Below are positions 5,253 through 22,326 of a stretch of DNA of 42,527 nucleotides, in pieces. Origin of the DNA: a virus. The stretch lies in IMG/VR virus record IMGVR_UViG_3300009537_000047, positions 1 to 42,527 of that record, one strand, 5' to 3'. The notes under the pieces were generated by a model, which saw nothing but the letters and a program-made list of their open reading frames with translations, had not been told where the DNA came from and did no database searches. The position numbers were made by a program, and so were the translations under genes. The number at the start of each line of letters is the position of its first letter. Positions within the stretch are counted from its first letter, which is position 1.

Positions 5253-5442
5253 AAACAAAGCAGTCATTGATAAGAAACCTTACGAGGAACTCCTGCGGAG
5301 GTGGAGATATGCGCCCTTAGGAGACCCGTTGTTTCAGGGAGAAACAGGAGATTATTGGCAGCAAAGAATGACTGAGCTACGCGCCGAACCCGGTGGACAG
5401 GAACGCCACGTGGCCGCAAGCAAAAGTATAGGGTGGGGATGA
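5236..5442 (+). CDS. Conserved small phage protein, unknown function (68 aa)
   Basis: Start placed at the second of two adjacent ATGs, six bases after GGAGG (5225-5229). The sequence (ELTAENKAVIDKK.YEELLRRWR, APLGDPLFQGETGDYW, then GGQERHVAASKSIGWG) closely follows a short protein common in many tailed phages and prophages that has no established function. The family resemblance supports that this is a real, intact gene. It lies between the Lar-like fragment and the full Lar-like gene and overlaps both by a few bases. Confidence 0.8.
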   Translation: MELTAENKAVIDKKPYEELLRRWRYAPLGDPLFQGETGDYWQQRMTELRAEPGGQERHVAASKSIGWG

Positions 5443-5846
5443 TGGAACAGATTGAAGGCCCGCCAGCGCCGAAGCTGGAACCATGCCCGAATCCGTGGTG
5501 CCATTCGCATGAGCGCGGGATCGGCGGTGTCCGTATTCGGAACTGTCTGCGATACGCAGATGATGTACTTGGCAAGATTGCTTACTCTGATGACAGTTTA
5601 TATGTGGGTAGATGCGCATCATGCGGCCTAGAAGGTCCGAAACACAGCACTCCCGAAGCCGCCGTCGAGGCATGGAACACGCGGCCATCACCGTGGCAGC
5701 CGATTGAGACTGTCCCATACGATACTATGGTTTTGATGCGGCTTAAGGGTGGGAATGTGTTTCAGGACTATTGCCTCGACGAAGGGTGGGCCTCGTTAGC
5801 CGCGCGTGGCTATACCCACTGGATGCCGATTCCGCCACCCCCTTAA
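5439..5846 (+). CDS. Lar-like zinc ribbon plus DUF551-like domain (about 135 aa)
   Basis: Two adjacent ATGs (5439, 5442) overlap the preceding stop; either may be used. Residues about 10-85 have the Lar-family layout: PCPNPWC, an aromatic/acidic middle, CASCGLEGP and A.EAWNTRPS. The four cysteines likely bind zinc. Residues about 86-135 match a DUF551-like module, W-QPIETVPYD, then a glycine-rich stretch and YTHWMPIPPPP at the end. Lar proteins of some prophages relieve host type I restriction; that role is family knowledge and only possible here. Shared pieces with 4699 and 5145 suggest local shuffling. Confidence 0.75.
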   Translation: MMEQIEGPPAPKLEPCPNPWCHSHERGIGGVRIRNCLRYADDVLGKIAYSDDSLYVGRCASCGLEGPKHSTPEAAVEAWNTRPSPWQPIETVPYDTMVLMRLKGGNVFQDYCLDEGWASLAARGYTHWMPIPPPP

Positions 5847-5933: not shown

Positions 5934-6155
5934 TTGAAACGAAAGCCCCTCCCCCAAGTGGGTGATTACATAACTGTATGTTTTGACATATACTCTGAGT
6001 CGTGTATATGGGCAACAGCTAAAATCGAGCAGCGACGGTGGTGGGGGATCTCCTACCGCATCGCAGTGCTCGTCAACGATGAACATATTGAGCTTACAAT
6101 GGGTGAGCTCAAACGATACAAGTGGAGGCACAATGATGAACGAAAGAGACGCTGA
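5934..6155 (+). CDS. Small early protein with probable TTG start (73 aa)
   Basis: An in-frame ATG at 5883 overlaps the -10 box and cannot be on the main transcript. The first start downstream of the promoter with a ribosome site is TTG at 5934, eight bases after AGGAG (5921-5925). This gives a basic protein, KRKPLPQVGDYITV..., with a beta-rich centre (WGISYRIAVLVND) and a KR-rich end. The size and strand pattern are compatible with a small beta-barrel, but no named family is recognised. Its end overlaps the next gene by 20 bases. Confidence 0.6.
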   Translation: MKRKPLPQVGDYITVCFDIYSESCIWATAKIEQRRWWGISYRIAVLVNDEHIELTMGELKRYKWRHNDERKRR

Positions 6156-6387
6156 GGAGTCCCTCGTACGGGTCAACATTGTCCTGCCGAAGGCGCTGGA
6201 CGACCGCTTCCGCGCGCGCTTCAACGACCCACTCTTCAATCGTACAGCGTATGGGGCGCGATCCCGCATCCTTCAGCGCTTGCTTGAGGAGTATCTCAAC
6301 GCCCTCGACGCCGGGACGCGCAAGCTCGATCCACGAATCCTCGGCCTTGCCGGGGAGTTCTCCATTATCGATCCAACGGAGCTGTAA
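6136..6387 (+). CDS. Probable ribbon-helix-helix-type DNA-binding protein (83 aa)
   Basis: Of two adjacent ATGs, 6136 is seven bases from GGAGG (6124-6128) and is preferred. The sequence LVRVNIVLPKALDDRFRARF has the short strand followed by an amphipathic helix of the ribbon-helix-helix (CopG/Arc) fold. After a loop (NRTAYGARS), RILQRLLEEYLNAL forms the second helix. Such proteins dimerise and bind palindromic operators. It is the second gene after the consensus promoter at 5856, so autoregulation is plausible. The inverted repeats at 205-228 and 724-741 are possible targets, by inference. Confidence 0.6.
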   Translation: MNERDAEESLVRVNIVLPKALDDRFRARFNDPLFNRTAYGARSRILQRLLEEYLNALDAGTRKLDPRILGLAGEFSIIDPTEL

Positions 6388-6390
6388 CAC

Positions 6391-6642
6391 ATGACAGACA
6401 CAGTGCAGAAAATCCTCGCCCATGATGAGGTTGAGCGCCTCGCCCACCGCATCAACGAGGCGCGGCGACTCCGTCTCGAGGGCGCCCCTACCCCTGAGAT
6501 CGCCGCCATCGAGCCTACGGCAGAGGAGATGGCAGCGGTGATCCAGTCCCTCCGAGTAGCTCGTGTTGCGAAACCTGCATCCAAGTCTCGCAGCACCAAA
6601 CCAAAGACCGTCTCCGACCTGAACAGCTTACTTGGATTGTAA
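6391..6642 (+). CDS. Small protein ending in LNSLLGL (83 aa), unknown function
   Basis: The start follows GGAG nine bases upstream, with TGTAACAC between. It is helical with an acidic/alanine-rich body (HDEVERLAHRINEARRLRLEG, PTAEEMAAVIQSL), then a basic linker (KPASKSRSTKPK) and the ending TVSDLNSLLGL. The last residues are nearly the same as the N-terminal peptide of the polymerase and of the 3223 product. The basic linker plus hydrophobic tail suggest a flexible docking tail. No named family. Confidence 0.7.
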   Translation: MTDTVQKILAHDEVERLAHRINEARRLRLEGAPTPEIAAIEPTAEEMAAVIQSLRVARVAKPASKSRSTKPKTVSDLNSLLGL

Positions 6643-6643
6643 C

Positions 6644-6946
6644 ATGGCCCACCCAACCTTACCAGAAGCGTATCCACTAGAGTTCTTTGAACTCGGTCGC
6701 GCCGCCACAGCTCACGAGGTCGTGCTCAACTTTCCAACACGAGACGAGGCGTTTCAATTTCAGATGAGATGGGGAGCGTTTAAAAAGGCTCTCCGCGCTT
6801 ACCCAAAAATCGACCCAGACCTCGCCGCCGTGATCCCTTCCATCGCTGCATCGAAGAAGCGTAACGATACTGTCGTCATCATGCGGCAAATCAACTACAA
6901 TGTGGATGTGATTCGAGCAGCCCTTTCCACTCAGCCAACGAGGTAA
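6644..6946 (+). CDS. Conserved-looking small protein (100 aa), unknown function
   Basis: The ATG at 6644 follows the previous stop within TTGTAACATGG; no clear Shine-Dalgarno is present, so coupling is likely. The product has the segment VVLNFPTRDEAFQFQMRWGAFKKALRAYP, a strand followed by a helix rich in aromatic and basic residues that resembles short phage replication-region proteins. The rest (AASKKRNDTVVIMRQ) is basic, and nucleic-acid binding is possible. It directly precedes the nuclease gene. Confidence 0.7.
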   Translation: MAHPTLPEAYPLEFFELGRAATAHEVVLNFPTRDEAFQFQMRWGAFKKALRAYPKIDPDLAAVIPSIAASKKRNDTVVIMRQINYNVDVIRAALSTQPTR

Positions 6947-6951
6947 CACCA

Positions 6952-7974
6952 ATGGCAATGACAGCAACTCCGCGGTTCCCTCCCGCGTTAGACAACACGA
7001 TAGTTGAGCGGTGGCGTAAGTGTCGCCGGCTTTGCTGGTACGAACATGTGCTCGGATGCAGCTCACCCGTTCGCAACGAGCACCTTCACTTTGGAGGATG
7101 CTACGCGGCCGGAGTCGAGACTGCGCGTCGGGCGTTCTATAGTGAGGGGAAATCCCTCGACGCCTCTATCGTGGCAGGCTCCCAGCGCATCTTAGCAGAG
7201 TGGGGGGACTACACTCCCCCGGACAACACCGTCAAGACCCGCGCGAACTGCATCGACGCCTTCGATCGCTATGCGAAGGAGGTGTATCCGTTCGGTATCG
7301 ACGATCTGATACCGTATCGCGTGGCGCCCGACGCGCCCCCGATGATCGAGTTCTCTTTCGCGTTGGAGCTTCCCTTCCACCACCCTGACACCGGCGAGCC
7401 TCTCCACTACGCTGGCCGCGCGGACATGGTAGGGACGTATCGCAGTCAGTGCGACAACCGTCCGTGGGAAGGGAAGACGTTGTGGGCCGTGGACGAGAAG
7501 TCCACTAAGGACATGGGACCGCTGTGGGCGAACCAATGGCGTCTGAGTGGCCAGTTCATCGGCTACGTAAAAGCGTTAAGGGAGTTGGAGAACATCACTG
7601 TCGAGGGCGTTTGCGTCCGCGGTGTATGTCTGTACAAAACACAAGCCCCCAAGTTCCAAGAGTCCTTCGTCCCTATCCCTGAGTGGCGCGTGAACGACTG
7701 GTGGAACAACCTCCTCGGCACCGTCGAAGAGATGATTATGTTCTACCGATACTGCACAGGGCAGGACGTTCTTCCAGGGCGAGATTGGGGCCACGCGTGC
7801 TCGTCGTATGGGGGGTGTTCCTTCCTCGACGTGTGTGAGATCGAGCATCCCATCCCATTCCTCGAAACCGAATATTTCGAGCGACGATGGAACCCCCTGA
7901 CCAGAACGGAGGAGCGCTCCGATGAACTACCTATGGACTATAGCGGGGCTGCGGTTCCTTTCAAGGGAGTATGA
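6952..7974 (+). CDS. PD-(D/E)XK nuclease, Cas4/RecB-like, with putative Fe-S cysteines (340 aa)
   Basis: The start is fixed by CGAGGTAACACC (6939-6950). Catalytic elements are visible: GRAD at about 155-158, VDEKST with D181, E182 and K183, and QxxxY (Q201-Y205), the RecB/Cas4 type motif set. Cysteines at 24 and 28, then 283, 289 and 295, fit the one-plus-three spacing of the 4Fe-4S cluster in Cas4/AddB nucleases. Phage proteins of this kind act as DNA exonucleases in recombination or host DNA breakdown. The neighbours, a Sak4-like ATPase and an SSB-like protein, support recombination-dependent replication. Confidence 0.85.
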   Translation: MAMTATPRFPPALDNTIVERWRKCRRLCWYEHVLGCSSPVRNEHLHFGGCYAAGVETARRAFYSEGKSLDASIVAGSQRILAEWGDYTPPDNTVKTRANCIDAFDRYAKEVYPFGIDDLIPYRVAPDAPPMIEFSFALELPFHHPDTGEPLHYAGRADMVGTYRSQCDNRPWEGKTLWAVDEKSTKDMGPLWANQWRLSGQFIGYVKALRELENITVEGVCVRGVCLYKTQAPKFQESFVPIPEWRVNDWWNNLLGTVEEMIMFYRYCTGQDVLPGRDWGHACSSYGGCSFLDVCEIEHPIPFLETEYFERRWNPLTRTEERSDELPMDYSGAAVPFKGV

Positions 7975-8398
7975 CGACCCTCATGCGTTTCAGTGGACCT
8001 ACAACTTCTGTTGCCAGGAGTGCGGTACGATCTGGTGTACCGCAGCACCTGTTGGCGCGAAGCACATCATCCACTCATGGACGAGAAAGCTGTGCCCACA
8101 ACACCGCGATCTCACGGCAGGGGAGCTTCTCACCCCATTCCTCGGCCTCCCTCTCGCCGCATACCCCTACCCCATTCTCGAATTCACATATTACAGGAGA
8201 CTATCCTATGAACGAACAGGCGACAGCCGCCTCCACACAAACGGCATCAACGCCGTGTGTCTCCCCAATTCCGGGGCCGAAAGTCATGCTCCTCGGAGAG
8301 CCGGGCAGTGGGAAGACTTTTTCCTGCCGTACCTATCTGGAGGCGGGGATCACTCCGTTCTTCCTCTTCACCGATCCGGGGATGGAAGTGGTGAGTGA
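7922..8398 (+). CDS. Zinc-ribbon-like protein with an unusual 190-bp overlap into the ATPase gene
   Basis: ATG at 7922 follows GGAGG (7908-7912) with good spacing and lies inside the end of the nuclease gene. The first 95 residues look genuine: FCCQECGTIWC, then K-LCPQH, a likely zinc site. From about residue 96 the frame runs into the start of the ATPase gene and loses any protein-like pattern, stopping at 8396-8398. Either the gene truly overlaps by 190 bases, or an original stop near 8200 was lost by mutation or a sequencing error. A C-terminal extension of no importance is most likely. Confidence 0.6.
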   Translation: MNYLWTIAGLRFLSREYDDPHAFQWTYNFCCQECGTIWCTAAPVGAKHIIHSWTRKLCPQHRDLTAGELLTPFLGLPLAAYPYPILEFTYYRRLSYERTGDSRLHTNGINAVCLPNSGAESHAPRRAGQWEDFFLPYLSGGGDHSVLPLHRSGDGSGE

Positions 8399-9071
8399 CT
8401 GTGACGAGATACATTGGAAGTACATCGCCCCCACGTCACCGAGCTGGGCGACCTTCATCGACAGCGCGCGGAAGATCAATACCCTCTCCCACGATGCACT
8501 GAGCAAGCTTCCAGACATCAACAAGCAGCAATACAACCAATTCGTTGTGATGCTAGAGACTCTTGCGAACTTCACCTGTGATCACTGCGGCGAGGCGTTC
8601 GGAGCGGTGGATCACTGGAATACAGACCGTGCCCTCGTGATGGATGGGATGAGTGGCATGAGCCAAGTTGCGATGGACCTCGTCGCCGGGAGCAAACCAG
8701 TGAAGTCCCAAGCGAACTGGGGTGTGGCGATGGATAACCTCAACCGCCTCATCATCAAACTCGCCACAGGCCTCAAATGCCATATGACGCTCATTGGACA
8801 CCTTGAGCGAGAGCATAATGAAGTCACCGGCGCGGTGGAGCTGATGGTCAGCACCCTCGGTCGGAAGCTCGCCCCGACGCTCGGGCGTCATTTCTCCGAC
8901 ATCATCCACTGTCGTCGTGCTGGAGACAAGTGGGTGTGGAGCACCGATACCGTCAACGTAGCGACGAAGACGAGGAACATAGCGTTGGGTGGAGACCTTC
9001 CCCCATCCTTCACCTCTCTCATCACTAAGTGGCAGAACGCCGGAGGTAAGATATGTCCGACGACAGTGTAG
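8208..9071 (+). CDS. Sak4-like RecA-fold ATPase, putative recombinase (287 aa)
   Basis: The start is set by CAGGAG (8194-8199), although the frame is open further 5'. Walker A is GEPGSGKT (about 30-37), preceded by PKVMLLG. LVMDGMSGMSQ around 145 is the Walker B-like strand. DHCG (residues about 125-128) is part of a possible inserted zinc site. TLIGHLERE and the following EL..STLGRKLAP fit the sensor strand and the end of the RecA core. Such phage ATPases (Sak4 type) promote single-strand annealing and usually sit next to their own SSB, as here (9532). It also follows an exonuclease gene. Confidence 0.8.
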   Translation: MNEQATAASTQTASTPCVSPIPGPKVMLLGEPGSGKTFSCRTYLEAGITPFFLFTDPGMEVVSDCDEIHWKYIAPTSPSWATFIDSARKINTLSHDALSKLPDINKQQYNQFVVMLETLANFTCDHCGEAFGAVDHWNTDRALVMDGMSGMSQVAMDLVAGSKPVKSQANWGVAMDNLNRLIIKLATGLKCHMTLIGHLEREHNEVTGAVELMVSTLGRKLAPTLGRHFSDIIHCRRAGDKWVWSTDTVNVATKTRNIALGGDLPPSFTSLITKWQNAGGKICPTTV

Positions 9072-9280
9072 TTGCGACCGCCGAAGCTGAATTGAGTGCC
9101 CTATTCTCAGAGGTGAGGAGAGCGGTGTCTGCTCTTAACACTGCTACCCACGCCGCCGTTGAGACCTCCAGGGGTATAATTGGCGACGAGGGGGTGGAAG
9201 ACATCAAACGACTCATCAATAGGGCTACGATACTGTGGCTCACCAAACTCGAGTCAGCAAGAAAGGAGATGACTAAATGA
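9053..9280 (+). CDS. Small helical protein, unknown function (75 aa)
   Basis: The start is six bases after GGAGG (9042-9046) and overlaps the end of the ATPase gene by 19 bases. It is almost entirely helical (EAELSALFSEVRRAVSALN, IKRLINRATILWLTKLES) and probably oligomerises. No motif recognised. Tight overlap on both sides indicates translational coupling with the ATPase and the next zinc protein. Confidence 0.7.
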   Translation: MSDDSVVATAEAELSALFSEVRRAVSALNTATHAAVETSRGIIGDEGVEDIKRLINRATILWLTKLESARKEMTK

Positions 9281-10110: not shown

Positions 10111-11433
10111 ATGAAACTTCTTCCCCTTTCTGAACTCGTCATTGACGAGGAGCGCGTTCGTCGCTTCTTCGATAAAGCGAGGTTGGATGAACTTGCAACC
10201 TCCATCACTAACAACGGTCTCCTCCACCCCATCGTCGTGCGCCATAATGAGAAGCTCGAAACGGTGCTGATAGCGGGGGAGCGGCGCTTCAACGCCATGA
10301 GGCTTTTGCATAACCGAGGCACCCCGTTTCGCGTGGTGAACTCTAACGGGTACACTCCAGTCCCTCCTCAACACATCCCTGTCAACTATGTCTCCGACCT
10401 CGATGCCTCTGCGATCCTCGAAGCTGAGATCGAAGAGAACGTCTGTCGGGTGGACGTGTCGTGGCAAGAGCGCATCGAGGCAGAGGCGAAGTTGCACACT
10501 CTTCGCGTCAAGCAGAACCCCACCCATACGTTAAAGGACACAGCGAGGGAGATTTACGGCGACGACGTGCCCTCGGGTGCCGCGAGTGAGCTCAAACGAG
10601 ATCTGTTGATCCACGAACTCCGCGACAACCCGGTGTTCAAGGGAGCCAAGACCCTCGACGACGCGAGGAAGCGCCTCGCTCACCACCGAAAGGAGCTCTT
10701 CCTCGCGAGCGTCGGAGACATCCTCGCGCAGACGGTGGACCCCAGCGAGCACGTCGTGTTCGAGAATAAGGAGGGGTGCGCCGCCATGACGACGTTGGGG
10801 CTCAGCGGAACGGAGGTGGATGTGTTCTGCTTCGATCCACCGTATGGTATCGCCGCTGACACCTTCCGCAACTTCAACAGCCTCGCAAAGCACACCTACA
10901 GCGACGAGGAACAAGAAGCGAAGAGGCTGACAGAACGCTTCCTCTCCGCCATAGAGGTGTGTCGCGCAAAGGAGGCGCACATCTACATCTTCTGTGACAT
11001 CAACGCGTTCTATGGCTGGCTTGCTCCACTAGTCGAGAGCTTCGACTGGAAGGTATGGCCGCGACCGCTCATCTGGGCGAAGCGCCAACACGCCGGAGCC
11101 CCCGACTACGACGCCGGCCCTGCGCGGCAGTACGAGGCAATCCTCTTTGCGACGAAGGGCGGGAGGAAGGTTGCGCGAGTGGGTGGCGATGTGCTCACCC
11201 ATGCAGCTGTACGAGACAAACTTCACTCCGCGCAAAAACCCTCGTCGTTGCTGACGGACATGCTGTCACGCGTCTGTAGTGTGGGGGACATCATCTGTGA
11301 TCCCTGCGCGGGAAGTGGCTCAATCGTCCTCGCGGCGAAAGAGTTGGGCCTTCAATGCTTCGCGTATGAGATCGACGAAGAGACATACAAAAAAGCCCTT
11401 GTAAACATCAACGTTGGAGATTCATTAACATGA
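10111..11433 (+). CDS. ParB-like domain fused to beta-class DNA methyltransferase (440 aa)
   Basis: Residues 1-115 match the ParB/Srx-type N-domain (LPLSEL..D, LDELATSI..NGLLHPIVVR, GERRFNAMRLL). Residues about 200-440 are a DNA methyltransferase: DPPYG at about 242-246 (motif IV), then DPCAGSGS at about 397-404 (motif I), the order of the beta class. DPPY favours N6-adenine. A conserved KPSSLLTDML precedes motif I. A linker of helices with EIEENVCRVDVSW joins the two. Such ParB-methyltransferase fusions occur on phages and mobile elements. Protection from restriction or marking of phage DNA is the likely role; target sequence unknown. The stop overlaps the helicase start. Confidence 0.85.
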   Translation: MKLLPLSELVIDEERVRRFFDKARLDELATSITNNGLLHPIVVRHNEKLETVLIAGERRFNAMRLLHNRGTPFRVVNSNGYTPVPPQHIPVNYVSDLDASAILEAEIEENVCRVDVSWQERIEAEAKLHTLRVKQNPTHTLKDTAREIYGDDVPSGAASELKRDLLIHELRDNPVFKGAKTLDDARKRLAHHRKELFLASVGDILAQTVDPSEHVVFENKEGCAAMTTLGLSGTEVDVFCFDPPYGIAADTFRNFNSLAKHTYSDEEQEAKRLTERFLSAIEVCRAKEAHIYIFCDINAFYGWLAPLVESFDWKVWPRPLIWAKRQHAGAPDYDAGPARQYEAILFATKGGRKVARVGGDVLTHAAVRDKLHSAQKPSSLLTDMLSRVCSVGDIICDPCAGSGSIVLAAKELGLQCFAYEIDEETYKKALVNINVGDSLT

Positions 11434-12623
11434 TTGAACTGACCCCCTTGCAGCAGCAAGGAATCGACTTCATCAACGACGACCCCTCCCCAATCAAGCG
11501 TATTGCTGGGGTGGCGGGGAGCGGAAAGACGTTCGTCCTTGCGCAGGTGGCGACGGAGGAGAACGATATTGTCACCACTCCGACGAACAAGGCGGCGCAG
11601 GTGCTGCGGGATCGCGGCATCGCTGCCAGGACGGTGTACTCCTTCATGTACGAGACACGTGTGGGTGTGGAGCGAGACAAGGATGGCAAACCGATCGAGG
11701 ATGCGTTCGGACGGCGGAAGGAGAAACTCGAGTTCAAGCATCGGCTCGACTTCGAGGACACCGATCCGGAGGACTACGCCGACATTCGCCTCTTCATCGA
11801 CGAGAGTTCGATGGTAGGTGGGAAGCTGTTCGCTGATGTGAAACGCTTCGTGAACGAGTGTGGTACTCATGTAGTGATGTTTGGAGACCCCTTTCAACTC
11901 CCTCCAGTCAAGGACGAGGATGTGTTTAAGGCGGCTGCTCCCAACGTATTCTTCGATGAGGTACATCGCACCGCCGCTGACAACCCCGTGCTCGCGTTCG
12001 CGTCACATATCCGCACTCACTCTAACATCTACGGATGGGAGGGGTTGCGTAATGAATCTCCATTTCCCATCGTACGTAAGACAGCCGCCAACGCAGGGAG
12101 CCTCATCTTCCGTCCGGAGACGCAAGTGGTTTGCTGGAAGAACGTCACGCGTAGGAGGATTAATGAGGGGTTTCGTAAGATGCTGGGACGAGAGGGACTC
12201 TATCCCGTCGAAGGAGATAAGATCATCTTCACCTCACGAGATCGCAAGGGTAAAGTGTTTAACGGGCTGTTTGCGGTGGTGGAGGGTGTGGACGTCGGCC
12301 CAACGGAACTGCGTCTCGATGTAGAGACGGAGAATGGAGTTCGCGTTAGCAACATCGAGGTTTCCAAGCACCCCTTCCTCGACTATACGGACTGGGGGCC
12401 AACGAAGCGTAGGGCGGAGGCGGGGATGTTCAAGTCCCACCAGACCACCTGTGACTTCGCCTACGCTATTACAGCCCATAAGTCACAGGGGAGTGAGTGG
12501 CCTGATGTCACAGTCATCGATGAGATCTCACACATCTCTGCGATAGGCCTCGATGAGCGGCGTCGATGGGTCTACACCGCGATCACCCGGACGCGAGAGA
12601 ACCTTTCAATTGTAAGAGGGTAG
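11430..12623 (+). CDS. Superfamily 1B DNA helicase, Dda/RecD-like (397 aa)
   Basis: Starts LTPLQQQGIDFI (Q-motif like), then Walker A GVAGSGKT (27-34), motif Ia TTPTNKAAQ, Walker B LFIDESSM (about 126-133), motif III FGDPFQLPPV, motif IV with the DEVHR segment, motif V AYAITAHKSQGSEW and motif VI VYTAITRTRENL. All helicase motifs are intact. Dda-type 5'-3' helicases help phage origin opening and fork movement. It lies between the methyltransferase (4-base overlap) and the polymerase (4-base gap), in a replication cluster. Confidence 0.92.
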   Translation: MIELTPLQQQGIDFINDDPSPIKRIAGVAGSGKTFVLAQVATEENDIVTTPTNKAAQVLRDRGIAARTVYSFMYETRVGVERDKDGKPIEDAFGRRKEKLEFKHRLDFEDTDPEDYADIRLFIDESSMVGGKLFADVKRFVNECGTHVVMFGDPFQLPPVKDEDVFKAAAPNVFFDEVHRTAADNPVLAFASHIRTHSNIYGWEGLRNESPFPIVRKTAANAGSLIFRPETQVVCWKNVTRRRINEGFRKMLGREGLYPVEGDKIIFTSRDRKGKVFNGLFAVVEGVDVGPTELRLDVETENGVRVSNIEVSKHPFLDYTDWGPTKRRAEAGMFKSHQTTCDFAYAITAHKSQGSEWPDVTVIDEISHISAIGLDERRRWVYTAITRTRENLSIVRG

Positions 12624-12627
12624 AACA

Positions 12628-15054
12628 ATGCCAGCCCTTGACAATCTCCTCGGCCTTACGACCGAGGTCCCCCTCGGCGCTGCCCTTGGCCCTCAGCCCG
12701 CCCGCGTCCTCATCGTGGGCGAGGCGTGGGGGCAGAACGAGGAACGCGAGGGGAAGCCGTTTGTTGGCGCCTCTGGGCAGGAACTCACAAACATGCTCCA
12801 TGAGGCGAACATCCTCCGCTCCGACTGCCGCATAACCAACGTGGTTAATGCGCGACCGGAGCGTAACGATATCGAAAACTGGTTCCACTCATCTAAAACA
12901 AAGGCGAAGGCGGCGGGGGAGGACACGCCTCTCTTTAGGCGCTACCCCCACGCTATCGTTCGCCGTGGCATCGAGGCCCTCAAACATGAGATCGAAACAA
13001 CCCACCCTTCCCTCATTATCGCATTTGGCAACACTGCTCTTTGGGCCCTCACAGGAGAGGTCGGAATCACCAAGTGGCGAGGGTCGTACCTCCACGCAAC
13101 AGGTCCGGTCGACGCTCCCTCCGTCCCAGTCCTCCCCACCTACCACCCCGCCGCCGTCCTTCGTCAGTGGTCTTGGCGATACATCGCAGTCCACGATATC
13201 AGATACGCCGCGAGTATCCTCGGTGGGACGGTGGTTGTACCTGAGTGGGACTTCACCTTATCCCCGAGCTTCTCAACCGCCACCCTATATCTCAACAACG
13301 TTTTGCGCAGCCTGGAAAAAGGCCCAACGCGAGTGGCTGCAGACGTGGAGACCCGGCGGGGGCAGATTTCGTGTATTGGCCTTGGGCTGTCTGACCGACG
13401 GGCAATCTGTATCCCATTTCATTCAAATAAAACCACCGATGGAAACTACTGGACTAACCCCGCACACGAAACTGCCCTCGTCCTACAGCTTAGAAGAATT
13501 CTAACCCACTCCAGCGCTGAGGTGATTTTCCAAAACGGCCTCTACGACATTCAGTACATCCTCGACAATTGGAAGTTCCTCCCCCACATCACCCATGATA
13601 CGATGGTGCTCCAGCACGCTTGTTGGCCGGGGTTGCCAAAGGGACTTGATTTCCTTGCATCGATGTACTGCTCGTATCGTCGGTACTGGAAAGATGATGG
13701 CAAGGAGTGGAGTGACAAGTATGAGAGCGAGGAGGATAATTGGCGATACAACTGTCTTGATTGTGTGCGGACATGGGAGATCGTTGACCCCCTTCTCTCC
13801 ACGCTGAAGTACCTCAACGTTGAGCACGTCTACGCGCAGCTTTGCTCTGAGTTCGAACCTGTCCTCTTCATGATGATTAATGGCGTGAGTATTGATGCTG
13901 CGCGCCGAGGGCAGATGACCCTTGACCTGATAGAGATGAACAATGTTCTACAATCTTGGTTTGACACCGCTGTTGAATCTGGTTTCAACCCGCGCTCAGC
14001 TCACCCCAACGGAGACATGCAACGACTCTTCTACCATGAACTCCGCATTAAACCAGTCACTCACCGCAAGACAGGCCGCGCAACACTTGCCAAGGGAGCT
14101 CTCGACACAGTCCTCGATCGCCAACCCCTTTTACATCCCCTCATCCTGCGAATTAAGGCATATCGCACAGCAGGGACATTCAAGGCAAACTTCATCGACG
14201 CCCCCCTCGATCCAGATGGGCGAATTCGCTGCTCATATAACCCCTGCGGAACAGAGACAGATCGATTCTCTAGCAGCGCAAACGCGTTTGGACGAGGGAC
14301 GAATCTCGAAAACATCCCCCGCCCACCAGAAACCGGCGAACGCGCACCGACACCGATCGTCACGCTGCCAAACGTTCGTAGTATTTTCATTCCTGACCCT
14401 GGTTATATCATTGCTGATTTTGATCTCGACCGCGCAGACGCACACATTGTCGCGTGGGAATCTGGCGATGAGTCCCTCAAGCGCATGTTCTTGGCAGGAG
14501 TGGATATCCACGAGGAGAACGCTAAGGTTATCGGGACAGGCCGTCAACTCGCTAAGTCATTCGTGCATGGAACTAACTACGGCGGTGGGGAGAAAACCGT
14601 AGCGGGGCACTGTGGTATCTCCGTCGCCCAAGCGCGCAACGGTCAACGTCTCTGGTTCAACGCGCACCCGCGTATTAAGGAGTGGCACGAGCGCGTCGAA
14701 CGCCAACTCATGCAGAACCGTACAATCACAACTGTGTTTGGGAGAAAGCGTATGTATTTTGATCGCATCAGTGCGGAAATTCGCAACCAAGCCCTCGCGT
14801 ATATAGGACAATCCCCTGTCGCGTGGGTAATCAATCGGGGCCTCCGCCGCGTGTACGATGAGCTCCCTTGGTGCCAACTCCTCCTCCAAAACCACGACTC
14901 CATTGTGGTTCAGTTCCCCAACGATAACGTAGCAGAACGCATCAACGACATTACCCAACGCCTCCGCGTCTCTATCCCTTACCCCGACCCCCTCATCATC
15001 CCGGTTGGTTGTAAGTACTCTACGCGGAGTTGGGGGGAGTTACGTCCCGCGTAA
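12628..15054 (+). CDS. Family A DNA polymerase with N-terminal uracil-DNA-glycosylase-like domain (808 aa)
   Basis: Three modules are visible. Residues 24-200 resemble a family 4/5 uracil-DNA glycosylase: VLIVGEAWGQNEEREGKPFVGASG, TNVVNARPERND, and YHPAAVLRQ. Residues about 230-390 are a 3'-5' exonuclease: DVE, NGLYD, and YNCLDC. Residues about 420-808 are a Pol I-type polymerase. Motif A is DLDRADAH with catalytic D599. Motif B is R639-x3-K643-x3-H647-G..Y651, so histidine sits where E. coli Pol I has F762. Motif C is H756-D757-S758. There is no 5' nuclease domain. The first residues carry LDNLLGL, shared with small early proteins. UDG-polymerase fusions are known in some phages. Confidence 0.9.
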   Translation: MPALDNLLGLTTEVPLGAALGPQPARVLIVGEAWGQNEEREGKPFVGASGQELTNMLHEANILRSDCRITNVVNARPERNDIENWFHSSKTKAKAAGEDTPLFRRYPHAIVRRGIEALKHEIETTHPSLIIAFGNTALWALTGEVGITKWRGSYLHATGPVDAPSVPVLPTYHPAAVLRQWSWRYIAVHDIRYAASILGGTVVVPEWDFTLSPSFSTATLYLNNVLRSLEKGPTRVAADVETRRGQISCIGLGLSDRRAICIPFHSNKTTDGNYWTNPAHETALVLQLRRILTHSSAEVIFQNGLYDIQYILDNWKFLPHITHDTMVLQHACWPGLPKGLDFLASMYCSYRRYWKDDGKEWSDKYESEEDNWRYNCLDCVRTWEIVDPLLSTLKYLNVEHVYAQLCSEFEPVLFMMINGVSIDAARRGQMTLDLIEMNNVLQSWFDTAVESGFNPRSAHPNGDMQRLFYHELRIKPVTHRKTGRATLAKGALDTVLDRQPLLHPLILRIKAYRTAGTFKANFIDAPLDPDGRIRCSYNPCGTETDRFSSSANAFGRGTNLENIPRPPETGERAPTPIVTLPNVRSIFIPDPGYIIADFDLDRADAHIVAWESGDESLKRMFLAGVDIHEENAKVIGTGRQLAKSFVHGTNYGGGEKTVAGHCGISVAQARNGQRLWFNAHPRIKEWHERVERQLMQNRTITTVFGRKRMYFDRISAEIRNQALAYIGQSPVAWVINRGLRRVYDELPWCQLLLQNHDSIVVQFPNDNVAERINDITQRLRVSIPYPDPLIIPVGCKYSTRSWGELRPA

Positions 15055-15088: not shown

Positions 15089-16303
15089 GTGAAACGATTC
15101 TTCTCGAATTGGGTAGAAGCATACGCCCAGTACACAGCGAGTCTTGAAGCCCCAGAACTCTTCCATAAATGGACAGCGATATCGGTGCTGGGGGGCGCGC
15201 TCGGACGAAAGACGTGGTTTGAACAGCATTACTACCGCTGGTCTCCAAACTTCTACATTATTATGGTGGCACAACCAGCCATCTGCAACAAGTCCACCAC
15301 AGCGCGCGTCGGGCACAACCTTCTCCGACAGGTTGGTACTGCGCGCTATGGCCCTAACTCCCTCACATGGCAGGCGTTGATCTCGTGGCTCTCGACCAAT
15401 GTGGAAGAGGTTCAACTCCCTGATGGCACGTTCCTCGGTATGACGCAGATGAACATCGTGGCGTCGGAGCTGGGCTCCCTCGTCAACCCAAGCGATTACG
15501 AAATGATCGATGTCTTAACGGACCTGTGGGATGGAGATCACACTGTTTGGGAGAAGATGACAAAGACATCAGGGCAAGAGACCGTCCCAAACCCCTGGAT
15601 TAACATCATTGCTGGAACGACACCAGGGTGGTTATCGGGGCGCATCCCCAGACACATGATTGATGGAGGATTGTTCTCTCGCATAATCTTCGTCTACGCT
15701 GACAAGAAGCGCTCTCGCGTAGCGTATCAGGATATGGGAGAACGGTCAGAGGAAGCGATTGAGTTTGAACGGAAACTCGTACATGACTTGGAGCAAATCA
15801 GCCTATTACGGGGAATGTATCAACTCTCTAGTCGCGCCTATGACTACGGGGTGAAGTGGTACAACGAGCATCAAGATCGCGTCGAGGCGAGAGACCCCCT
15901 ATATCAAGCGCTCGGGACGTATGTTAGCCGAAAGCAAACCCACCTCCATAAGATTGCGATGGCGCTGGCTGCGGCAAAACGAGACACGCTCGTGTTGGAG
16001 GAGAGTGATCTCAAGGAAGCGAACGACTTGTTGCTCCTCGCCGAGCAAGACATGTTCCGGGTCTATATGTTGGCGTCAGAAGACCCAATCATCGCCGCGG
16101 CTAACTTGTTAATGGAGACCCTCATCCCATACAAGCGCCTCCCACAGGACACTCTCTTCCGCTTGGTCTTCTCTCGCATGACATTCGAGACATACAAGAA
16201 AGCCCTCGTAGATATTACGATGGCACGACGAGCGAAGATAGTACAAGAGGGTAACGCCATGTACGTTGTAGCGGAAGAGGAGAGACTCCCCCATGCCATG
16301 TAG
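15089..16303 (+). CDS. DUF3987-like replication protein with degenerate P-loop (404 aa, GTG start)
   Basis: The GTG at 15089 is the most 5' usable start. The protein opens FFSNWVEAYAQYTASLEAPELFHKW and continues ISVLGGALGRKTWF and a strand PNFYIIMV, exactly the lead-in to the ATPase of DUF3987/primase-helicase-type phage proteins. The expected GxxxxGKS is replaced by QPAICNKST (residues about 62-70), with lysine and serine kept but both glycines lost. Later segments, MTQMNIVASELGSL, DLWDGDHTVWEKMTKTSG and INIIAGTTPGWL, also match that family. A C-terminal domain (about 300-404) is helical. Likely a replicative helicase or loader. It follows the polymerase by 34 bases. Confidence 0.75.
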   Translation: MKRFFSNWVEAYAQYTASLEAPELFHKWTAISVLGGALGRKTWFEQHYYRWSPNFYIIMVAQPAICNKSTTARVGHNLLRQVGTARYGPNSLTWQALISWLSTNVEEVQLPDGTFLGMTQMNIVASELGSLVNPSDYEMIDVLTDLWDGDHTVWEKMTKTSGQETVPNPWINIIAGTTPGWLSGRIPRHMIDGGLFSRIIFVYADKKRSRVAYQDMGERSEEAIEFERKLVHDLEQISLLRGMYQLSSRAYDYGVKWYNEHQDRVEARDPLYQALGTYVSRKQTHLHKIAMALAAAKRDTLVLEESDLKEANDLLLLAEQDMFRVYMLASEDPIIAAANLLMETLIPYKRLPQDTLFRLVFSRMTFETYKKALVDITMARRAKIVQEGNAMYVVAEEERLPHAM

Positions 16304-16517
16304 CATCCTTCGTATGCTCGCGGTGAGCTACTGCTGCGAGTGGCGCTTCGTCACAGAGAACTTTTGGGGGGAAGCTGGAGCCTCTCTCGCAAAGCAGTAC
16401 GGAATATCAACCTCCACTGTGTACCGCTACAAGCAGCTTGCGCGGAACGACCGTCTCACTCGTTGTGCGGAATGCCGTAAAGTGGCTTTTTGTCCTCAAG
16501 AAGGACTGACTCCCTGA
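16293..16517 (+). CDS. Small helix-turn-helix protein with C-terminal zinc knuckle (74 aa)
   Basis: The ATG at 16293 overlaps the preceding gene by 11 bases and follows GAGGAG. The segment EAGASLAKQYGISTSTVYRYKQLA is a good helix-turn-helix of the kind used in small transcription or terminase-type proteins. CAECRKVAFC gives a compact cysteine cluster. It is the last plus-strand gene and its 3' end overlaps the end of the convergent 1,956-codon gene by 62 bases. It could regulate the late arm; that is inference. Confidence 0.7.
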   Translation: MPCSILRMLAVSYCCEWRFVTENFWGEAGASLAKQYGISTSTVYRYKQLARNDRLTRCAECRKVAFCPQEGLTP

Positions 16518-19500
16518 AGGTTCGACCCGCACGAGCAGCTTTAAGCGCGTTGGAGCGGAGGTGATTCTCCAAACTGGATACGATGGTTCTCATATCTCGT
16601 ATTGCCATCCCTGGCGGTGCCTCTTTATTGAACGCCTGAATCGCAAGCATAGCCTCATTGATGAGCACTCGGTCATTCCGTCGAACCCCAAGGGCGAGTT
16701 CTCGTAAGAGCTGCTGCTGCCTCCCGGCGTAGTACATGTCGGTCAGATGCACCGCGCGCCGGAAGTCCCGCTCCTCTCGCTCATCCGCAAAGGTGAGCCC
16801 AAGCGCCTTCGCCGCAACGCGCCATGGGAGTTGGTTCTCGTCGTAGCTGAAAATGAGCGCGTCGTAGGGGTCGGTGTATCCTCCATCCACCGCTGCGCGT
16901 CGGGCTTGTGACAGATACCGCATGAATGGGGGGTAGATCATCTCCAACCGTCGCATGTAGTCAGCACTTGGATTCGACGCTGCATCGGCCGCTGCCCAGA
17001 GAAGGGAGAACGCTGCGCCGGTTGCATCACGACCTGACTCCTTGAGCCCTTCTGCAATCCCCTTCGGTGACATGTCTCGAACGGCGTGGAGGAGACCCTC
17101 AGGGAACACTGGAATATTGCCCATCGAAACGCGAGAGCCAAACCCCGGTATCCCGAGTATCCCGTGCATCCAGAGATGCGGGTCGGCGTCGATGGCAACC
17201 AGCCACCGTCGGAATTCCTCTCGAGAGTTAAACCGCACGTTTGGATTACTCCTCGTCATAATCATGTCGATCACGTCGAAGATCTCTTCCGCACCGGGCA
17301 AACCGCTCACCCCCGCAGACGCAAAGAGCACCGCGAGCGCTCTCATGTTCCCCGTATCCTTTCCGAGAAAGTACATCATTTGCTGGAAATACGACACGAA
17401 GAGAAAGATGGGGCTTGCTGGTCCTCGCATGAATGCAGGGCGGTTGAAGCGTGCGTACTCAAACTGCGTCCGCCTCACCATGTCCCGCGCGAACTCGAGT
17501 GCATCCTTGTAGTTATCCCCCCGCTTCCGCGCAAGGTTGAACGCCGCAAGCCCGGTGACGTGGCGATTGAATATCTCTGCTTGTGTAAACGCCCACGGAG
17601 CAATCACCCCCGCCTGATGCATCGCCTTGCCGAGTTTGTTTCCCGGCGACAACCGCTGGATGAAGTTCCCCCGAGCGAACCCACTTATCTCCGTAACGAT
17701 TGACTCGTTGAGCCACAGGCCATCCTGCCCCGCTCGGATGAACTTTCGTTGCTCCCGCGAGAGATGTGCGTTGTCATCCTTCATTCCACCGCGAAGCTGA
17801 GCTGCCGCCCTCGTGATCTCTTTGAGCGCCGCCGTGTCGCCAAAACGAGCTGCGAGGGCGGGGTACGTCGCAAGGGGTATTTGGGACAGATTCATCGCCC
17901 CTGCAACAGGCACGAGTGCAAAGTAGTAATGGAACATCCCACTCTTGAGAGCATCCATTTCATACGGCTTACTGAACACGTACTTGTAGTGTCGTTTCAT
18001 GTACGTCTCGAGCCTGTCGTAATGCTTCGTCTTGTCGAGCCCCTCTTCATACACCAACTTGTTCTTTTGCTTCGCGACATCAGCGATCGCGTCGTTCAGC
18101 CTTCCACTGTACTTCGCTGCTGCGAGGTGATTCGCAGCGTAGTACGCATACTCAGAGAACGCCCGCACAACGTCCTCAGAATACCCCGGTATATGCTTCC
18201 TCTTGAGCATGTGGCCAGCGAATTTAGTCCCTGCGGTATGGTTCACGATGAACTTGTCGAGGGCGTCTGCGCGCTCTGTTTGATCAGCCACCCGCATGAT
18301 GTCACGGAGTGCCTCCAGCATCGGCCGTGGCATACCTATGTAAGCACGATCATCACGGAGAACCTCCTTCACTCGAATAACATAGTCCTTGTCGTCGAGG
18401 AACTCCAACTTTGCCGCCGCCATAGCTTTATTCGCCTGGAACTCAAACGCGTAGTTGAAACTCCCAAGTATCTCGTTTGACCTCTTATCGTGGATGATCA
18501 GGTTCCACTTCCCAAACCGAGTCTCAGGGAAGAAGTGAACACTCGCCATCTTGTTGAACTTCTCGTGTATCTCCGCGCGACGTTGGCGTAGTAGCTCTGG
18601 GTCTTTCTCCGTCCGGGCCAGGTTGTCATGGGCGATTTGCCGCAGATTATTCAACACATGTAAGTGGTATAGGTCCATACTCTTCCGCACAGCTTCTCCG
18701 CGCACGGAAAGTTTGAACTTGCTGAAATCCGGCGCGCCGGGGCCGCTGCGTGGGAGCCCATTCGCTTCAAATATCGCGCGAGTGAGGTTGCTGAACTCCT
18801 CTTTGCTGAGAAGCTGTGCGTCCCGTGCGATCTTGTCCGCCGAGAGGTGGAGCTTCACACGGAACTGCGTATACTCGTTCGCCGTCACATCGACGTAGGT
18901 TTTGAACGCCGGCACCATGTCTGCGACGTGATCCGCGTTCTGCATCAACGTGTTGAACCACATGTGCGAGCGCCGGAAGCGGAGGTTCGCCGCTCGGATG
19001 TCCTTTGGATCGAACGCGTCTTTGCCGGTTGCTTTCCCCCCCTCTCCATGGTTCCACCCGCCCCCGCTCCCTACACCAGGTGCCCCTTTGCGCACCTTGT
19101 TGAGCATGTCCATCCGCCGGAGAATATCATCCGTTGGCTTCGTCGTGGTGAACTGCTGCCGCATACGAGCAGGCATTACGTCTGGTGACACCCCACCGAG
19201 TTCATACTGCGCGTCAACGTCACGCTCGAACACAGGAATCTTGAGCCACTGGTTCACAGTCCCATCACGATTCGTAATGTCAACCTCTTCAACCTTCCTC
19301 CCACGGAAGAACTCTCGTGCGAATGCTCCAGCTTTGTCCATCTGTTGCTCTTGCCCAAGCCCCTTCACACGGTCGAAAAGCTCGCCCGTGTCAGCGTTGC
19401 GAGGGAAGTACGCCCAACCGATGAGGGCGTTCGGTCCTTCCCCCGCTATGGACGGCGCCCCTGAGACCTTGATACGCTCTGCCGCCAGCTTCACGGTCTC

Positions 19501-22326
19501 CTGTACAACCCGCTGCCAGTACACCGTAGGGTCATGGGCGCCGAGGCGTTCGTAGTGACGCGCAACGATCTCCTCGTTGAGGGCGTGATACTCGATCCAG
19601 AGGTCAGCAGCAGTCCTGGCTGCATCCTTCGCCCTTGCTATTGCTTGCGGCAATGCGGGATCGTCAGGGGCGGTTTGTACACTTATCCTAGCCGTTTCTT
19701 CTCGCCACTTTTTTACAGTCTCTATCTCCCTTCTCACAACCTCCGCTAGTCGCTCCAACTCCGCAATAGAGAGCCGATCCCCTTCACGTGCCTGAGAGCG
19801 AACGGGAATATCTTGGTTTTCAAGTTTAATAAAAGCCTCTATTGGAGTATGTTCAATTCTACCCTGTCTTGCGAGCAGTCTAGCACGTTCTGCTTTTCTC
19901 AGCCTTTTCTTCAACCCTTCAAACTTCGTCGCGCCGTGCTCCTTTTGGAACCCCGTCACGTAGAAGTGCTGTTTGGAGTTCGACAGCGCCCAACGAATGA
20001 AGAAGAGGGGGTTGGAGATTCGACGAGCAGTCGCCACTCCCTCCCACCCTAGCATTGGATCACGATCCCTCGCGGAGGCTTCCATAAAATGCTCGTTCAC
20101 CTTCGGGAACATTTTTAGCACACGCTCAAGTATTGGAGCTCGAAATACCGAAGTACCAAAGTTTCGAACCTCTCCTCGCATTTGTGGGAGAGGGGAGGGA
20201 TTGTCAGACGCAAGATGAGGGAACGACATATCACCAAACCTTACGTTGCCCCCCTGATCAGGGGCTGGAGACCTCCACAGGTCCAGTCTCGATGTGGAGT
20301 ACTGCTGCGTATCCACTCGCTCAAGCGGCGAAGTCTCTCGAATAAACGTCCTCACAAAGTCGTCGTAGTAGACCTTATCGTTTCCTGGCAGCCGCGCGAT
20401 ATTGTAAATCCGCTTGAGTGCATTCGCGTGGCCCTTCACCGCGTTAGCTTTCTGGAGCGCCGCCACTAGATCTCCCTCGGTGATGAGCCCGCGCTCCCCC
20501 TCTGGCTTCGCCGCCACGATGTCCCCAAGCCCCTTCACCACTTGACTCGTGGTGTGGGAGGTCTTGAGAGATTCCCTCGCAGTGACGATCTGGGGTTCTG
20601 TCATCCCCCGCTGCACAACGAAATTCGCATCCCCCTCGCCCGGCGCAGGGAGGGAGAGTATACGCGGGAGCGCTTTTGCCTCATTATGCAATACGATCTC
20701 TAGCCCCCGCATAATTCCTATCTCACGTGAGTCGAGCGTATCCCCTTCCCGGTGCTTCTTGAGAATCCTGATGATCTCTCCAGCCCCGCTGGTGGTTGGT
20801 TCAAGCGACAGCACCTTCTTCATCGCGGCCTTGCCATACTCCGTGCGGAGATACCGCCGTGCGTCTACCATCGTTCGAGGGCCGAAGGTTTCCACAAGCC
20901 TCGGGTCGTACGTGAGGCGGTTTGCGAGAGCCTCTATAGGGACGTTGATGAGGCCTGCTCCCTTTGTCACCAGCTTAAGTCCCAGCAACGTCGCGAAGAT
21001 GTGCGCAACGGACTCTTTCGTCATCGGCTCGTCTTTGAGGATTGCGTGGCCGCCGGCGAGAGCGGCTCCCTCCATCGCAAACTTAATCGGGCCGTCGAAC
21101 CAGCCCAGCTTGGGGATTACTCGTGGGAGGCCGGTGAGCGCACCAACCAAAGCGTCAACGCCGGCGTCCTCCAGCTCCCCCGTCATCACTGCGTAGCCCC
21201 CAAACGCGCCGGCCATCTCGCCCGCACTCCGCAGCCCGCGTCCAAGGTGGTCGAAGCGGGTGATCTCTGGCGCGTGTTTGAGGGGCTTGCGGAGAAATGT
21301 GTACAGCGTGTCTACAACCCCCGGTGCGTATTTCTCTGCAAGGGGGAATACTTTCGCTGCGGCAGCAGTGATACCAATCTTCGCGAGCGCGCCGCCGGGG
21401 AAGAACGCGATCTGATCCACTGTGGCAAGGTTGAGTACATCGCTCGCAACGACGACGCCGAAGCGCGCAGCTTCTGTGCGCTGGGCGACCTCTTGCTCGG
21501 TTTTTGGAATCCCTCGTTCAATATATTCCTCCATGTCTTGCGGGAGTGCCACAATCGTACCGCTACGCGCCGCGCGAGTCGCTTCTGCAACCTTCTTTAT
21601 GGTCAACGCTCCTTTATGATACGTCAGCTTGAACAGCTTCTCCCATTCCCCCTCATCCCCAAACCCGTACTGCTTTGCGGCCTCCAGCCCCACTTGACGC
21701 AGCACCTCCTCCACAACCATACGTCTCTTCACATCAGCCTTCAGCGGACTGTACAGCTCCCGCGCGGCCCATTGCTGCTTATACCCCCCACGCGAATACA
21801 TCTTCGCCTCATCCGCGGTGTCGAACTCCGCATACTCGTTGTTCTCGAGCGCGTATGTGAGCGCGGCATCTGGCTCTAGCTTCTTAAGAGACCCATCTTC
21901 CCCAAGTACAAGCGTAGGATATGCGATGAACTTTCCATCCACCTCCGCGTCTGCCATGAGATGCGTAGATTTCGTCCCATCCGCGTTTGAGATGGTAGGG
22001 TACTCGCTCGGTCGCGTGATGCGATCCACAAACTGTGGTGGTGTGGCGGTGGGATAGCGAGGATACAGCACATCAGTTTTGAGATCAAGCGGTCCCTCAT
22101 TCAGCATCGCCTCGAGATCGAGCTTCGGCGCTGTGGGGGCATCGGGAGCCTCCGCCAACATCGCGTCGATGTCTATGTTGGGGGCTGTGCGCGCGGGCGA
22201 CGGTGGTGGAGACGTTACGCTATGCGGCGGTACACTGCGCGTCGCTGTGCTCGTCGGCGGCGGTACATTCGGTGTCGGAGGCGCCTCATTTATCATCGCC
22301 TCGATGTCAATATTTGGGGTTGCCAT
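16456..22326 (-). CDS. Giant internal virion / DNA ejection protein (1,956 aa)
   Basis: At 1,956 residues it is by far the largest product and lies at the end of the structural operon, as T7 gp16-type ejection proteins do. The N-terminus carries three copies of a short peptide: IDIEAMINEAP (about 6-16), IDIDAMLAEAP (51-61) and LDLEAMLNEGP (69-79), in a proline-rich linker. Residues about 95-190 (SNADGTKSTHLM, VDGKFIAYPT, YSRGGYKQQW) form a module I associate with podoviral core proteins. The remainder is long helical and alanine-rich with hydrophobic stretches near 290-460 and 1630-1720, suitable for membrane insertion during ejection. No lytic transglycosylase motif was recognised. A rare case of direct convergent overlap at its 3' end. 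Confidence 0.85.
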   Translation of the reverse strand: MATPNIDIEAMINEAPPTPNVPPPTSTATRSVPPHSVTSPPPSPARTAPNIDIDAMLAEAPDAPTAPKLDLEAMLNEGPLDLKTDVLYPRYPTATPPQFVDRITRPSEYPTISNADGTKSTHLMADAEVDGKFIAYPTLVLGEDGSLKKLEPDAALTYALENNEYAEFDTADEAKMYSRGGYKQQWAARELYSPLKADVKRRMVVEEVLRQVGLEAAKQYGFGDEGEWEKLFKLTYHKGALTIKKVAEATRAARSGTIVALPQDMEEYIERGIPKTEQEVAQRTEAARFGVVVASDVLNLATVDQIAFFPGGALAKIGITAAAAKVFPLAEKYAPGVVDTLYTFLRKPLKHAPEITRFDHLGRGLRSAGEMAGAFGGYAVMTGELEDAGVDALVGALTGLPRVIPKLGWFDGPIKFAMEGAALAGGHAILKDEPMTKESVAHIFATLLGLKLVTKGAGLINVPIEALANRLTYDPRLVETFGPRTMVDARRYLRTEYGKAAMKKVLSLEPTTSGAGEIIRILKKHREGDTLDSREIGIMRGLEIVLHNEAKALPRILSLPAPGEGDANFVVQRGMTEPQIVTARESLKTSHTTSQVVKGLGDIVAAKPEGERGLITEGDLVAALQKANAVKGHANALKRIYNIARLPGNDKVYYDDFVRTFIRETSPLERVDTQQYSTSRLDLWRSPAPDQGGNVRFGDMSFPHLASDNPSPLPQMRGEVRNFGTSVFRAPILERVLKMFPKVNEHFMEASARDRDPMLGWEGVATARRISNPLFFIRWALSNSKQHFYVTGFQKEHGATKFEGLKKRLRKAERARLLARQGRIEHTPIEAFIKLENQDIPVRSQAREGDRLSIAELERLAEVVRREIETVKKWREETARISVQTAPDDPALPQAIARAKDAARTAADLWIEYHALNEEIVARHYERLGAHDPTVYWQRVVQETVKLAAERIKVSGAPSIAGEGPNALIGWAYFPRNADTGELFDRVKGLGQEQQMDKAGAFAREFFRGRKVEEVDITNRDGTVNQWLKIPVFERDVDAQYELGGVSPDVMPARMRQQFTTTKPTDDILRRMDMLNKVRKGAPGVGSGGGWNHGEGGKATGKDAFDPKDIRAANLRFRRSHMWFNTLMQNADHVADMVPAFKTYVDVTANEYTQFRVKLHLSADKIARDAQLLSKEEFSNLTRAIFEANGLPRSGPGAPDFSKFKLSVRGEAVRKSMDLYHLHVLNNLRQIAHDNLARTEKDPELLRQRRAEIHEKFNKMASVHFFPETRFGKWNLIIHDKRSNEILGSFNYAFEFQANKAMAAAKLEFLDDKDYVIRVKEVLRDDRAYIGMPRPMLEALRDIMRVADQTERADALDKFIVNHTAGTKFAGHMLKRKHIPGYSEDVVRAFSEYAYYAANHLAAAKYSGRLNDAIADVAKQKNKLVYEEGLDKTKHYDRLETYMKRHYKYVFSKPYEMDALKSGMFHYYFALVPVAGAMNLSQIPLATYPALAARFGDTAALKEITRAAAQLRGGMKDDNAHLSREQRKFIRAGQDGLWLNESIVTEISGFARGNFIQRLSPGNKLGKAMHQAGVIAPWAFTQAEIFNRHVTGLAAFNLARKRGDNYKDALEFARDMVRRTQFEYARFNRPAFMRGPASPIFLFVSYFQQMMYFLGKDTGNMRALAVLFASAGVSGLPGAEEIFDVIDMIMTRSNPNVRFNSREEFRRWLVAIDADPHLWMHGILGIPGFGSRVSMGNIPVFPEGLLHAVRDMSPKGIAEGLKESGRDATGAAFSLLWAAADAASNPSADYMRRLEMIYPPFMRYLSQARRAAVDGGYTDPYDALIFSYDENQLPWRVAAKALGLTFADEREERDFRRAVHLTDMYYAGRQQQLLRELALGVRRNDRVLINEAMLAIQAFNKEAPPGMAIRDMRTIVSSLENHLRSNALKAARAGRTFRESVLLEDKKPLYGIPHNE

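Follow-up and report, generated by a model that had tools for sequence, protein, structure and literature searches.

The locus considered here raises the question of what kind of enzyme is formed by a phage DNA polymerase that carries a uracil-DNA glycosylase (UDG)-like domain at its N-terminus and a histidine at the position of Phe762 in E. coli Pol I. The DNA analysed, referred to as the window, is a 42.5-kb viral contig (an IMG/VR record of 42,527 nucleotides). The account developed below is that of a replicative UDG-polymerase from a clade with H762 and D710, in which these two residues would be co-adapted, the UDG module would have a role of its own, and split relatives would assemble from two subunits. 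Taken as a whole, this account is probably correct.

The Polymerase Gene and Its Neighbors

The polymerase is encoded by one ORF with three recognizable domains, on the same strand as the adjoining genes:

10111..11433, plus strand: fusion of ParB-N and an N6/N4 DNA methylase (Pfam)
11430..12623, plus strand: Dda-like SF1 helicase (phrog_325, 1.6e-70)
12628..15054, plus strand: UDG-exonuclease-polymerase (family A), 808 aa, single ORF with an ATG start, fused form
12688..13173, plus strand: UDG domain, aa 21-182, family-4-like, without FeS cysteines (PF03167, 7e-25)
13291..13806, plus strand: 3'-5' exonuclease domain DNA_pol_A_exo1, aa 222-393 (PF01612, 2e-8)
13960..14973, plus strand: family A polymerase domain DNA_pol_A, aa 445-782 (PF00476, 8e-34)
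14311..14367, plus strand: flexible linker loop, aa 562-580, pLDDT 63-68, the break site in split relatives
15089..16303, plus strand: primase-like protein (phrog_14296, 2.1e-76)

All three Pfam matches of the polymerase exceed the curated cut-offs, and the ORF as a whole matches the DNA polymerase family phrog_17 in PHROGs (E 2.8e-80). The AF2 model of the full-length protein has a pLDDT of 91.4 and a pTM of 0.89, and its polymerase fold aligns with Klenow fragment (1kfs) with Z 36.1 over 555 residues (VIA-align). A methylase or ParB-like gene and a primase recur as neighbors of the polymerase in relatives, where the counterparts of the primase-like protein are annotated as DUF3987 or primase. 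Terminase, portal and major head protein genes of the window are on the strand opposite to the polymerase. The ORF is likely to be the replicative DNA polymerase of a tailed phage of ~42 kb.

Two other genes of the window deserve mention. A 1956-aa protein without a Pfam match is encoded at 16456-22326 (minus strand), adjoining the virion genes, and may be a large protein for ejection or of the virion interior. A Lar-like restriction alleviation protein (phrog_599, 1.7e-8) is encoded at 5433-5846 (plus strand) by the same phage that carries the ParB-N/DNA methylase fusion.

Assignment of Active-Site Residues

E. coli numbering was fixed by an alignment that includes the Pol I of Salmonella (L215), a real enterobacterial enzyme. 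The three polymerase motifs are located as follows:

14422..14445, plus strand: motif A, D599-L-D-R-A-D604-A-H606, corresponding to D705...E710..R712
14542..14580, plus strand: motif B (O helix), R639-K643-H647-Y651, with the H647 codon CAT at 14566-14568
14893..14901, plus strand: motif C, H756-D757-S758, corresponding to H881, D882 and E883

Motif B of the window, RQLAKSFVHGTNYG, aligns without gaps both with Taq, RRAAKTINFGVLYG (phmmer), and with Salmonella Pol I, RRSAKAINFGLIYG. In the latter alignment, with which Taq agrees, R639 corresponds to R754, K643 to K758, H647 to F762 and Y651 to Y766, and the motif lies on a single helix (639-650) in the AF2 model. The sequence-only reading, which had put H647 at the 762 site with the R639-K643-H647-Y651 spacing intact, is borne out by both ungapped alignments. 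F645 had to be considered as the 762 equivalent, and is ruled out by the same alignments, where it falls two positions earlier.

The altered motif A of that reading, with an aspartate (D604) at the E710 position, is likewise recovered against Salmonella Pol I: D599 aligns with D705, L600 with Y706, A603 with I709, D604 with E710 and H606 with R712. The exonuclease residues D239, E241, D307, Y374 and D378, equivalent to D355, E357, D424, Y497 and D501 of Pol I, are all present. With its PF00476 match, D705 and D882, K758, Y766 and the five exonuclease residues, the ORF is by its sequence a family A polymerase with proofreading. It departs from more familiar enzymes at two sites. The canonical steric gate, Glu710 (a usual trait rather than a requirement for membership), is Asp604, and the Phe, Tyr or Leu that defines the viral PolA classes at 762 is His647.

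The H762/D710 Clade

Relatives were collected from IMG/VR, GenBank phages and genome bins (MAG contigs). H762 is found in 155 of 155 distinct relatives, the window included, and cannot be a matter of chance since it is invariant in this set and position 762 was absent from every search pattern; a sequencing error or an oddity of one genome is ruled out by the same relatives. D710 occurs in 153 of the 155 (window included), a count that is slightly biased because one viral scan used a motif A pattern favoring D710. Two IMG/VR scans whose patterns included neither motif A nor motif B gave the same H762/D710 result. D705, Y766 and D882 are invariant in the 155 relatives, as are the exonuclease residues wherever the column is filled.

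A tree was built from the alignment columns of the exonuclease and the polymerase, and in it a supported branch (SH-like 96) separates the H762 set from the rest; the trees are FastTree trees with some long branches. The sampled polymerases outside this set, distant phage enzymes and Salmonella Pol I, have F, Y or L at 762. In two deeper lineages, one around Desulfofustis phage (L036, L224, L225) and the other around Caulobacter phage Kuura (L035, L227), H762 is paired with E710, so that His probably came before Asp. Few members of the clade are named phages: Microcystis phage Mel-JY34, Vibrio phage VS-ABTNL-3 and Caulobacter phage Kuura. Judged from alignment and tree, the window polymerase belongs to a large, distinct and almost wholly uncultured phage clade characterized by H762, nearly always D710, L706 and A709.

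The scan of genome bins returned seven loci, most of them on MAG contigs of 24-51 kb; one, L132, is a distant F762 enzyme. A cellular origin was considered and rejected, the seven loci being without an evident chromosomal copy, and those on MAG contigs are read as probable binned phages. One relative (L011) has an in-frame insert of about 297 residues after H762-G (match 6001-9240), which starts with CLTAGHEVLTPDGW and ends with FVTGN before Thr. This looks like an intein inside the O helix, placed directly after H762-G.

The UDG Domain

Residues of the predicted uracil pocket and catalytic site, with Tth UDGa numbers in brackets, map to three segments:

12721..12762, plus strand: UDG motif 1, (G)EAWGQNEEREGKPF, with E32 (E41), A33 (G42), E38 (E47) and F45 (F54)
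12838..12867, plus strand: uracil-binding N71 (N80) and water-positioning N80 (N89)
13144..13146, plus strand: catalytic H173 (H155), assigned by homology from the alignment to Tth UDGa

Modelled alone (AF2), the domain has a pLDDT of 93.3. Its closest folds are the UDGa enzymes of Tth (1ui1; Z 22.9, rmsd 1.8 over 162 residues, VIA-align) and T. maritima (TM0511, 1vk2; Z 21.6). The N-terminal UDG-like domain proposed earlier is upheld by this model and its fit to Tth UDGa, together with the PF03167 match.

Family 4 UDGs are characterized by a 4Fe-4S cluster held by four cysteines. These four cysteines are not present in the window protein, which has one Cys (C67) in aa 1-200, and for this reason the domain is described as family-4-like and is not placed in family 4. 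Position 34 in motif 1 is Trp instead of the family 4 Pro. There is also no UdgX KRRIH-like sequence in aa 1-200. In UdgX chains the KRRIH-type loop, which carries the cross-linking His109, is an insert after motif 3, as seen in an alignment to a His109 mutant.

The family 4 pocket is made up of E41, G42, E47, F54 and N80, with N89 and H155 catalytic (PMC5387724). Ala also occurs at 42 within the family, and the H155S change lowers the rate by over three orders of magnitude (PMC5387724). In the window all seven positions are conserved or filled by such an alternative (E32, A33, E38, F45, N71, N80 and H173). Across 148 members of the clade, pocket conservation is bimodal, with seven of seven in 61 and three or fewer in 60. 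Supported branches of the tree force at least 10 changes of pocket state, and pocket losses, as read from that tree, recurred in the clade. The PF03167 match is nevertheless retained in all 49 aligned members, so the UDG fold outlasts loss of its chemistry.

The sequence-only reading had seen in the fusion a form of uracil surveillance coupled to synthesis. For the window protein, with its complete pocket, this is plausible; as a general reason for the fusion it lacks support, since surveillance cannot explain retention of the domain in the 60 of 148 members with degenerate pockets. The window module probably excises, or at least recognizes, template uracil near the polymerase, and in relatives with degenerate pockets it would probably be a DNA-binding or architectural element.

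It is possible, though somewhat doubtful, that the domain is an idle architectural module throughout the clade, serving processivity or DNA binding, with the intact pocket of the window as a remnant. Poxvirus D4 plays such a part in its polymerase holoenzyme. Recurrent pocket losses with the fold kept (three or fewer residues in 60 of 148) would fit, as would the missing FeS cysteines and the Trp in place of the motif 1 proline. However, the 61 of 148 members with all seven residues keep H155, N80 and E47, whose role in uracil binding or excision has been demonstrated (PMC5387724), and the two states of the pocket, intact and degenerate, show clustering and a bimodal distribution, as though each were being maintained. 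With the UDG module intact in some members and degenerate in others, uracil sensing at the fork can be tested on natural variants.

The Sugar Site and Position 762

In characterized family A enzymes, residue 762 packs against the sugar and governs both speed and the selection of ddNTPs, and E710 is the steric gate and stabilizes the ternary complex (PMC9324360, PMC13228545). For T7 polymerase, Y526F has been shown to cause a 50% loss of activity and Y526L a 97% loss (PMC13228545). H762 and D710 may act as a co-adapted pair. The larger, polar ring of His would fill and hold the sugar-side pocket, and the shorter Asp would still reach Y766 and the 2' position; dNTP selection could thereby be kept with an altered sugar contact.

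Alternatively, H762/D710 could be a neutral lineage marker in an enzyme that acts like an ordinary F762/E710 polymerase. Each residue was fixed by apparently one origin (H762 is one change on the tree), which makes the strict conservation of the pair a weak independent test of function. Neutrality is nonetheless unlikely: position 762 strongly controls activity in T7 (PMC13228545), conservation in 155 of 155 relatives at roughly 30-50% overall identity implies constraint, and D710 comes after H762 in the branching order. A histidine at 762 together with a changed steric gate provides a direct test of dNTP versus rNTP and ddNTP discrimination in family A polymerases, and H762/D710 enzymes may be useful for sequencing or synthesis.

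Position 762 also serves as a metagenome readout of phage lifestyle. Nasko 2018 described only Phe, Tyr and Leu groups (PMC6302109), and Keown 2022 kept PolA sequences only if they had F, L or Y at 762 (PMC9069017), so that the H762 clade cannot appear in the latter survey. A word search of PMC6302109, PMC9069017 and PMC13228545 gave no mention of a His762 variant. The earlier remark that His lies outside the classes defined by F, Y and L is correct, though the gap is partly a product of the Keown 2022 filter (PMC9069017). The clade shares with the published classes the same position and the same idea of a clade-specific residue; those report F, Y and L only (PMC6302109, PMC9069017), and His adds a fourth state, present throughout the clade and removed by the filter of a published survey. 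As the fixed state of a whole clade, His762 says nothing special about the lifestyle of the window phage, which cannot be read from it under the F/Y/L scheme.

Split Polymerases

The window protein is of the fused form, its ORF continuous and without a break in the palm loop. Among 161 distinct loci typed, 138 are fused and 23 split, in a sample biased by the queries and with a few distant outgroups or proteins broken elsewhere counted among the fused. The split point is common to the 23 distinct relatives and falls in the palm loop equivalent to window residues 562-580. The N half ends directly after a NLQNIPKGDE-like sequence, and the C half begins just before LPN(I/V)RKMF, in almost all cases with a start codon just upstream. 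The halves abut or overlap in L010, L017, L087, L158 and L175. Genes found between the halves are:

dUTPase: L021, L027
ThyX: L018
ribonucleotide reductase: L128
MazG-like pyrophosphatase: L019, L023, L143
HNH endonuclease: L012, L016
HTH regulators: L009, L013, L016, L029
Phd antitoxin (weak match): L131

These intervening genes are complete and mutually unrelated. The dUTPase of L021 and L027, whose activity reduces the uracil content of DNA, thus sits inside the gene of a polymerase that itself bears a UDG domain.

The distribution of split and fused forms on the tree needs 8-9 state changes, and supported branches account for at least 6 of these; on this evidence the split arose several times independently at one loop. 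Catalytic residues stay intact in both halves. Since the loop at 562-580 tolerates breakage of the gene, the two halves would probably come together as a polymerase of two subunits. Group I introns are judged unlikely, because the halves are separated by whole unrelated genes, the C halves open with start codons and the genes of some pairs abut or overlap. A split intein has no room, as the N halves stop within a few residues of the conserved motif.

It is highly improbable that the split loci are merely damaged genes without function or errors of assembly. Mobile elements such as HNH genes do often interrupt phage genes, and some metagenome contigs carry frameshifts (e.g., L025 and L050), but the same breakpoint recurs in 23 distinct members, almost all C halves have start codons, the genes between are complete and unrelated, the catalytic residues are intact, and the split is present in a cultured phage, Vibrio phage VS-ABTNL-3, as well as in related contigs. 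For the stronger statement, that the sugar site was rebuilt with His762 and Asp710 and that the polymerase repeatedly became a true two-subunit enzyme, with nucleotide-pool genes (dUTPase, ThyX, MazG-like, RNR) as well as other cargo between its halves, the chances appear about even. A replicative polymerase broken repeatedly at one palm loop is a natural two-part polymerase design.

Breaks at other places also occur. In two related genomes, L035 (Caulobacter phage Kuura) and L227, the split separates the exonuclease part (about aa 366) from the polymerase part. Another UDG-PolA in two ORFs, L045 (MW202554), is split at about aa 383/441 and is Y762/E710. The reading frame is broken at about aa 362 in L050 and at 90-105 in L025; these breaks are likely frameshifts or contig errors and not the recurrent split.

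Comparison with Known Systems

The fusion of UDG and PolA is already known from SPO1-type phages and the phiLo polymerase (PDB 9qhs), although no dedicated paper on such fusions was found in the open literature searched. Neither the H762/D710 clade nor the repeated changes in the UDG pocket, nor a split recurring at a single loop, was found described in the literature searched, which takes in few subscription papers.

With E. coli Pol I Klenow, Taq and T7, the window polymerase shares the exonuclease and polymerase fold, D705, K758, Y766, R668, H881 and D882, together with every exonuclease residue. It differs from them in having H762 rather than F, Y or L, D710 rather than E, L706, A709 and S883. 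It also has an extended palm loop (562-580), and a UDG domain occupies the place of the 5' nuclease of Pol I.

The family 4 UDGs Tth UDGa and T. maritima TM0511 have in common with the window domain the fold (Z 22.9, rmsd 1.8) and the seven pocket and catalytic residues. In contrast to these enzymes, the window domain lacks the 4Fe-4S cysteines, is fused to a polymerase and has W for P in motif 1.

The OM43 phages MEP401 and MEP402 (Zobellviridae) encode a family A polymerase in two ORFs that flank a small gene, the break being close to motif A (PMC10580990). That break is further downstream than the one described here, the N half ending with LFLSRYGE and the C half starting with MILNADAKALE. 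The OM43 polymerase is of the F762/E710 type, and a UDG domain was not reported for it (PMC10580990).

The polymerases of SPO1-type Bacillus phages and of phiLo, like that of the window, join a UDG-superfamily domain to an exonuclease and a family A polymerase within a single chain; the order, with UDG N-terminal to exonuclease and polymerase, is the same in the window and in SPO1L1. The SPO1L1 polymerase, unlike that of the window, has F762/E710 and a different UDG pocket. The phiLo chain (9qhs) is longer, with 1122 residues, and its UDG part matches the window UDG model with Z 15.3, below the values for the free family 4 enzymes.
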